This document shows positions 57,001 to 62,831 of a stretch of 64,000 nucleotides of DNA, in pieces. The position numbers and the translations under genes are program-made. The DNA is from Planctomycetota bacterium (GTDB taxonomy: Bacteria > Planctomycetota > Phycisphaerae > UBA1845 > UTPLA1): assembly GCA_015654675.1 (NCBI GenBank), contig JAATGM010000024.1, forward strand, positions 1-64,000, in the 5' to 3' direction. The notes beneath the pieces were generated by a model, which searched no databases, was not told the DNA's origin, and worked only from the letters and a program-made list of their open reading frames with translations. Within the stretch, counting starts at the first letter, position 1. Each line of letters starts with the position of its first letter.

Positions 57001-57236
57001 GACCGAAAAATCCGGCGGATTTCACTGGCAACCTGCCGAGGCGTTCGTTAGCATCCGCGGTCGCCTCAACGAGCGCAAGGATTTGCTCGTCGGCAACCAA
57101 AAGGCACGAGCCGGCATGGACGCTGGACGAATCAATCACGCCGTTCTCTCCCCTTCAACATCGCAATCTCTCTATCCGCACGGAAGCGGATTCGCTTTTC
57201 GCGAAGCGGTGCTTTTCGAACAAAGGAGTGTTCGTG

Positions 57237-58016
57237 ATGAAGACGGTCCGATCATCAACCCCTGATCGACTCTGGAAAGTCTATCTCAAAACTCAGGAGG
57301 TAAAGCTCCGCAACGAGCTCGTCGACCACTATCGCCCGCTCGTCCACATGCTCGCGGCGCGCCTCGCACAAAAGCTTCCGGCGCAGGTCAGCTACGACGA
57401 AATCTGCTCCGCCGGCTACGACGGACTCATCGAAGCCGTCGAGGCCTACGACCCCAAGCACAAGGCCAAGTTCGAAACCTTCTGCCAGCAGCGCATCCAC
57501 GGCGCCGTCATGGATTGGCTCCGCGCCCTCGACGGTCAGTCGCGAACGGTCCGCAGTTTTGAAAAGAAGCGGATGAACGTCCGCGAGCGGATGGATGCCG
57601 ATCTCGGCCGCCCCCCGACCGAGGAAGAACTCGCCGGCGGTATGGGCATCACCGCCGACCGCTTCTCCGAGCTTTCGCGCCTCTCGCGCCTCGGCCGAGA
57701 AGTTCATCTCTCCGCCGTGCAGGGCGAAGACGATGGCCGCGGCCGCACCAACGGCGGCGGCTGGGACTTCCGCGACGTGAAGTGCGCCGATCCGTCCAAC
57801 CGCGTCAGCCGCAAACTCCTCACCGAGTACATCACCCGCGGCCTCAACCGCGAAGAACGCCTCGTCCTCGTCCTTTATTACTACGAAGGTTTGACGATGG
57901 CCGAAATCGGATTGGTCCTGAACCTCTCCGAATCACGCGTCAGCCAGATCCACAAAGACGTGATCGAGCGCCTCCGCCGTCGCTTCGACGACGAAGGCGT
58001 CGAAATGGTCGCCTGA
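57237..58016 (+). CDS. RNA polymerase sigma factor of the FliA/WhiG (sigma-28) group
   Basis: 259 residues from the ATG at 57237, with AAAGGAG eight bases upstream; a GTG at 57228 overlaps that Shine-Dalgarno sequence and is less likely. Region 2 reads LVDHYRPLVHMLAARLAQKLPAQVSYDEICSAGYDGLIEAVEAYDP and FETFCQQRIHGAVMDWLRALD; region 3 ERMDADLGRPPTEEELAGGMGI; region 4 LNREERLVLVLYYYEGLTMAEIGLVLNLSESRVSQIHKDVIERLRRR. The match to FliA/WhiG-type factors is strong. No flagellar genes or anti-sigma factor gene adjoin it, so a non-flagellar regulon is possible. Confidence 0.92.
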   Translation: MKTVRSSTPDRLWKVYLKTQEVKLRNELVDHYRPLVHMLAARLAQKLPAQVSYDEICSAGYDGLIEAVEAYDPKHKAKFETFCQQRIHGAVMDWLRALDGQSRTVRSFEKKRMNVRERMDADLGRPPTEEELAGGMGITADRFSELSRLSRLGREVHLSAVQGEDDGRGRTNGGGWDFRDVKCADPSNRVSRKLLTEYITRGLNREERLVLVLYYYEGLTMAEIGLVLNLSESRVSQIHKDVIERLRRRFDDEGVEMVA

Positions 58017-62218: not shown

Positions 62219-62292
62219 CGATCCCGAGTGGGTTCGAACCACCAACCTCCGGCTTCGCAGGCCGACGCTCTATCCAATTGAGCTACGGGATC
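62219..62292 (-). tRNA. tRNA-Arg, anticodon GCG
   Basis: All four arms fold: acceptor GATCCCG/CGGGATC, D stem GCTC/GAGC with GG and A20 in the loop (an arginine identity base), anticodon stem TCGGC/GCCGG with loop CTGCGAA (anticodon GCG, reading CGC/CGU), and T stem GGTGG/CCACT with TTCGAAC. Length is 74 including discriminator G; CCA is not encoded. Most bacteria use an ACG anticodon converted to inosine for these codons, so GCG is unusual. Confidence 0.93.
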
Positions 62293-62440
62293 CGGCTTTC
62301 GCGCGGGCAAACTTGCCGCAGCGCCCGGCCTGAGCATAAGGCCCAAAGGGTTCAAGTCAACCCTGACGGCCAACCCGCCTGGAAGCTCCAAAAATCCGCA
62401 ACTTGTCACCTGTTGACGGCGTAGAATCTGATGGAATAGG
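62293..62440. other. Intergenic region upstream of the tRNA
   Basis: Presumed promoter region of tRNA-Arg and mqnE on the minus strand and of the structured RNA unit on the plus strand. TTGACG at 62414-62419 could be a plus-strand -35 element, with a weak -10 near GAATAG (62435-62440). Confidence 0.4.
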
Positions 62441-62601
62441 GGACCGATAGCCCAAAAGCCACACTCCCGGCGGCGTGCGACGCCTTGGTGCGTCGCCATA
62501 AACAGCCAAAGGAAAACGATTTACGGGAAACTCCACATGCCGCCGTGCAGCCCGACACCATTTTGGACGATAAGACTTGAATCCGGGAGTGCAAGGTTAT
62601 A

Positions 62602-62676
62602 TGAATCTAATGGCTTCCGAGTTTTGGGACACACTCACTCCCGCGGCACGGATTTATAGGAGGATCGCGACCTAAC
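62602..62676 (+). CDS. Possible 24-aa small ORF inside the structured RNA
   Basis: The ATG at 62602 is four bases after AAGG, which touches the 3' strand of the closing stem of the RNA. The peptide MNLMASEFWDTLTPAAR ends in IYRRIAT, with tandem AGG-AGG codons that also form an internal Shine-Dalgarno-like TAGGAGGATC. The stop is 38 bases before the terminator stem. Translation is unproven; a second ATG at 62611 is in frame. Confidence 0.3.
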
Positions 62677-62713
62677 CCGTCGCATTCGTTCGTACGGCTT
62701 CTTTCCCCTCCGG

Positions 62714-62758
62714 AAAGCACTAGGATTGCCCTTGCGGCTCCTGGTGCTTTCTTTTTTG
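62714..62758 (+). terminator. Strong intrinsic terminator
   Basis: A 13-bp stem with one U-G pair (GAAAGCACTAGGA at 62714-62726 with TCCTGGTGCTTTC at 62740-62752), extended by GCC/GGC in the loop and followed by six T. It ends transcription from the left; the nearest gene to the right is convergent. Confidence 0.92.
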
Positions 62759-62831
62759 TACCCAGCCAAAAGAAGGGTTTCAGAGGGCGTATTGCGCCCC
62801 CCCCAGAGCATATGAGCCGATCGCCCCGGAC

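Follow-up and report, generated by a model that had tools for sequence, protein, structure and literature searches.

The window analyzed here comprises 64,000 nt of a contig from a Planctomycetota bacterium, and its segment at 62441–62758 raises the question of what kind of RNA the plus strand might encode. An earlier note had interpreted this segment as a riboswitch or attenuator in which mutually exclusive stems control a tiny 24-codon ORF. We favor another reading, to which we assign a probability of about 0.7: the region encodes one of three genomic copies of a trans-acting base-pairing sRNA with a C-rich seed at its 3′ end. The sRNA of this region is previously undescribed. In the literature searched, we came across no conserved family of trans-acting sRNAs described for Planctomycetota, and Rfam contains none either.

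Conservation of the 3′ end and the proposed riboswitch

A BLASTN search with 62420–62760 as the query detected a relative in 96 of 101 genomes belonging to the same order as the window. Save for a few marginal places, the alignments in these genomes cover only approximately positions 270–340 of the query, which correspond to about the last 62 nt of the region. This conserved part, 62696–62757 (+), consists of GGCUUCUUUCCCCUCCG followed by an intrinsic terminator, and it is the portion common to all members recovered by BLASTN and by the covariance model. Genomes carry one to three copies of the element, with three in the own genome, usually two in the genomes of the family and often two in the order. 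Extra copies with lower scores within the order vary in their flanks and stem and keep a C-rich strand and CCUCCGG.

The covariance model (R1), which was built from an alignment of 66 members, matches in 90 of the 198 genomes sampled from the class Phycisphaerae. When 294 genomes of the phylum were searched with this model, nothing convincing was found outside Phycisphaerae, where two matches were marginal. The exact 25-mer GGCTTCTTTCCCCTCCGGAAAGCAC occurs in 83 stretches among the named genomes scanned, nearly all of them from Phycisphaerae, UBA1845 included, or from unclassified Planctomycetota MAGs. The viral contigs and plasmids searched contained no copy of the element. Two Patescibacteria MAGs of 0.6 and 0.8 Mb harbor one copy each, with the exact 25-mer and a near-identical terminator (L101, 1492–1516, plus strand; L112, 4208–4232, minus strand). 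Judging from inspection of predicted ORFs, both of these copies appear to be flanked by a DHH-type phosphoesterase-like gene on one side and by a GerMN-like gene on the other. Horizontal transfer and a wider family are both possible origins of the Patescibacteria copies.

The earlier note had treated the 3′ end only as a terminator, and the conserved and probably functional part lies exactly there. The elements of its proposed switch do exist in the sequence, namely the 8-mer CACTCCCG at 62462–62469 and 62636–62643, its complement CGGGAGTG at 62584–62591 (each 1 nt lower than the note had placed them), the AAGG at 62593–62596 and the 24-codon ORF running from the ATG at 62601 to the TAA at 62675. 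The 8-mers and the ORF fall within the unconserved 5′ leader of the window copy (62457–62695, plus strand). A riboswitch should possess a conserved aptamer domain with compensatory changes, but BLASTN with 62420–62693 yields no relative at this locus among 100 related genomes, and neither 8-mer is present in any of 13 orthologous copies of the locus that were examined. As for the mutually exclusive stems, the upstream one (62462/62584) is predicted to form with a probability of ~0.86 while the alternative one (62584/62636) reaches 0.02, and therefore no balanced switch is predicted. The upstream domain, described as multi-helix, is no more stable than shuffled sequences (z = −0.26; z = −0.88 for the whole RNA). 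Triples of 8-mers in this layout are found four times in the window and zero to two times in 20 shuffles, so that the layout is uncommon but not unique. Nor is there a gene downstream on the same strand that could be regulated, the next gene being convergent, and the tiny ORF itself belongs to the unconserved part. Taken together, a riboswitch or attenuator is extremely unlikely at this locus.

Other claims of the earlier note were borne out. The unit is independent, its strong terminator and the gene converging on it can both be confirmed, and the putative plus-strand RNA matches no known family. In Rfam 15, only tRNAs scored over the gathering threshold in the window and in 13 loci with homologues, and the relaxed thresholds returned nothing beyond chance matches. 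The sole tRNA or tmRNA found is a tRNA-Arg gene at 62219–62292 on the minus strand. A peptide encoded by the conserved 25-mer was also considered and rejected by inspection: the third codon positions are invariant, the length changes in the terminator are not multiples of three, and the start codon is not common to the members.

Seed, terminator and GGAGG lid

The element is an independent intergenic unit that ends in an intrinsic terminator and contains a conserved unpaired seed, both of which are expected of an sRNA. The seed GGCUUCUUUCCCCUCCG at 62696–62712 (+) is C-rich and complementary to Shine-Dalgarno-type sequences, with CCUCC at 62707–62711. Columns 4–20 of the alignment and the strand 5′ of the terminator, GCUUCUUUCCCCUCCGG, are invariant among the 66 aligned members, many of which were chosen via the exact 25-mer, a selection that accounts for part of the invariance. 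The core of this strand, UUYYCCCCUCCGG, is almost invariant, unpaired and anti-Shine-Dalgarno-like, and CUCCCCUCCGG is kept in 25 of 26 distant members even though the flanking stem changes completely.

The terminator hairpin at 62713–62751 (+) is composed of the 5′ arm GAAAGCACUAGG (62713–62724) and the 3′ arm CCUGGUGCUUUC (62740–62751), and is followed by a U-tract at 62752–62757 (+) that is kept in nearly all aligned members. In the 66-member alignment, 98.9% of the cells in the GAAAGCACCG/CGGUGCUUUC helix are paired, and compensatory changes on both sides occur at 6 of the 10 pairs, which none of 500 shuffles reached. The terminators of distant members have been rewritten, as exemplified by GAAAACAUCG/CGAUGUUUUC, GAAGACACCG/CGGUGUCUUC and GUAGGCGAGC/GCUCGCCUAC; their terminator cells are 100% paired in an alignment fitted by the covariance model, which leans towards the model. 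Since GAAAG covaries with the CUUUC of the terminator, a CUUUCC/GGAAAG stem presenting CCUCC in its loop does not qualify as the main fold. A scan with promoter and terminator consensus sequences detected no plus-strand sigma70 site, and the same scan also missed the terminator at 62713–62757.

Upstream of the seed, a GGAGG at 62659–62663 (+) is predicted to pair with the CCUCC at 62707–62711 with a probability of 0.84–0.99 and thereby to mask the seed as a lid. Within the lid helix, the minimum-energy fold contains a small GCGAC/GUCGC hairpin (62667–62683, plus strand), the sequence of which varies between copies. Of 105 copies of the order, 74 are predicted to fold with CCUCC paired to an upstream sequence, compared with 29–40 when the leaders were shuffled. 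CGGAGG is enriched in the upstream sequences of the order (49 of 102, counted over 300 nt, versus 12.5) and clusters at −35 to −52, and TCAT-N0-4-GGAGG was observed 27 times against 0.7. The distant members do not carry the lid, as a 6-nt complement is found in 2 of 26, not above chance; 22 of their 26 predicted folds leave the seed free, whereas most folds of the own order are lid-capped.

Promoter-like motifs and genomic loci

Promoters recognized by sigma28 (FliA) have the consensus TAAA/GCCGATAA. A tentative sigma28-like promoter of the window copy is located at 62422–62449 (+), where TAGAATCT at 62422–62429 is followed by a ACCGATAG-type −10 box, CCGATA, at 62444–62449. If transcription started from this promoter, the transcript would be ~300 nt in length. 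The site is an imperfect match to a motif of the AAG-N16-18-YCGATA type, which is carried by 36 of 104 copies against an expectation of 0.4, and by 6 of 26 distant members against an expectation of 0.1. GCCGATA alone occurs in 38 of 102 upstream sequences versus 2.3 expected, and A-A-G is prominent at −20 to −18 when these sequences are anchored on GCCGATA. In most orthologues of the window copy, [CT]CGATA is positioned near −118. A TATAAT at about −85, which follows the CCGATA box with constant spacing, was noticed in several window orthologues (L005, L013, L018 and others) and suggests a second, tandem promoter. In several distant members, the promoter-like motif is only ~20–30 nt upstream of the seed, and therefore their RNA would be only ~75 nt long.

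The AAG-N16-18-YCGATA motif resembles sigma28 promoters, but the assignment is tentative because the genome-wide count of the pattern is not above the control: TAAAG-N15-17-GCCGATA showed no genome-wide enrichment in four genomes, where the counts were near chance and no flagellar genes were found downstream. Three of the family's genomes (L221, L223 and L235) have flagellin genes preceded by GAAAG-N16-CCGATAG, in which the spacer is 1 nt shorter than that of the sRNA set, and this pattern was not seen at most other flagellins. The distribution of FliA is uninformative because it is present in all 198 class genomes. A gene for a FliA/WhiG-family sigma factor is located at 57228–58016, 5 kb from the sRNA, with a score of 184.9 bits that is below the cut-off of 189.6, and the own genome contains five flagellin-like genes.

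The copies fall into conserved loci. Of 95 copies in the own order, 54 follow a gene of one particular cluster, on the same strand and ~200 nt past the stop codon, and the sequence of this gene carries motifs of class II ribonucleotide reductase (nrdJ); the upstream homologue at a distant copy (L191) scores as a B12-dependent ribonucleotide reductase. One group has its copy between nrdJ and rpsP, and some genomes have one copy ahead of the rpsP operon in the same orientation, for which a local cis role is conceivable. A second set, which includes the window copy, comprises 14 loci sharing a conserved convergent gene, and the mqnE cluster is divergent upstream at 12 loci; the divergent mqnE arrangement also occurs in another Phycisphaerae family (L153). 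Next to the window copy, the tRNA-Arg gene and mqnE are situated upstream on the minus strand, and the convergent gene downstream has no NCBIfam match. Across the loci the direction of the downstream gene is inconsistent, with 53 convergent and 37 codirectional.

Proposed function, rival explanations and known sRNAs

In the proposed mechanism, the working part would be the C/U-rich single strand CUUCUUUCCCCUCCG immediately 5′ of the terminator hairpin. By base complementarity, this seed should bind Shine-Dalgarno regions of the GGAGG(GGAAA) type in target mRNAs, and such pairing would prevent the initiation of translation. In the order of the window, where the upstream GGAGG is predicted to fold back on CCUCC, the lid would have to open before a target could be paired, and it could hold the RNA inactive until then. 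When the own genome was scanned for near-complements of a 15-mer, their frequency was about that of a control pattern. Among these matches, whose number is about that expected by chance, GGAGGGGAGAGAAAC is found directly upstream of the GTG start of a predicted secreted protein (G000:C60:67893–67907, minus strand; L151), and this site is a possible candidate target of the seed. No match to Hfq (PF17209) was found in the own genome; sRNAs that work independently of Hfq are known.

Alternatively, the conserved strand might act in cis, as a terminator or 3′-end element to which a protein binds or at which the RNA is processed, for example in connection with mRNA stability or with factors of transcription termination, and might lack any activity in trans. 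Such a role would be in line with the element always being joined to an intrinsic terminator and with the finding that more than half of the copies in the own order are situated ~200 nt past nrdJ in the same orientation. However, copies of the window type follow no same-strand gene, many copies are separated from nrdJ by a promoter-like motif of their own, and a nearly invariant strand of 13–17 nt complementary to the Shine-Dalgarno sequence exceeds what a terminator needs; we consider a purely cis-acting element unlikely, a minor contender. Since the RNA contains both Shine-Dalgarno-like and anti-Shine-Dalgarno-like sequences, GGAGG and CCUCC could also titrate other sRNAs or contact the ribosome instead of specific mRNAs. 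This cannot be the core function because the GGAGG part is missing in distant members, and we judge a sponge or ribosome-directed RNA to be highly unlikely. A broader form of the trans-acting sRNA reading, namely an ancient class-wide Phycisphaerae family combining the near-invariant anti-Shine-Dalgarno seed, the GGAGG lid, flagellar sigma control and independence from Hfq, and shared horizontally with Patescibacteria, appears rather doubtful as a whole.

The trans-acting sRNA reading finds parallels in other bacteria. In Gram-positive bacteria, the UCCCC seed of the RsaE/RoxS sRNAs blocks binding of the 30S subunit by pairing with Shine-Dalgarno sequences, and one seed is normally masked in a stem-loop (PMC9217828). 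The planctomycete sRNA is similar in its C-rich seed and may function by analogy, and we do not claim membership of that family: it comes from another phylum, has a single seed abutting the terminator, matches nothing in Rfam and has targets that are only predicted. The CcsR or cuckoo RNAs of Alphaproteobacteria are short, occur in several copies and carry the anti-Shine-Dalgarno-like motif CCUCCUCCC, whereas the core of the planctomycete sRNA is CCCCUCCGG. CcsR RNAs arise by processing of the 3′UTR of the DUF1127 gene ccaF1 (PMC8625941, PMC10253847). In contrast, the planctomycete copies are dispersed; each has a terminator of its own, and many also have a separate promoter-like motif. No Rfam match points to homology with RsaE/RoxS or CcsR, although Rfam may not hold both families.

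The sigma28-dependent sRNAs of E. coli work with Hfq. Possible control by the flagellar sigma factor, suggested here by the promoter-like motif, likens the planctomycete sRNA to UhpU, MotR, FliX and FlgO, which are sigma28-dependent sRNAs of E. coli (PMC10578931). It differs from them in that the own genome yielded no Hfq match, and a relation in sequence is not expected.

The proposed sRNA family is represented in nearly every genome of the order and in roughly half of those sampled from the class, and its 13-nt core is almost invariant. The covariance model makes this family testable in cultured Phycisphaerae. If the reading is true, it would provide a strong entry to post-transcriptional regulation in a phylum where, at least in the own genome, Hfq was not detected.
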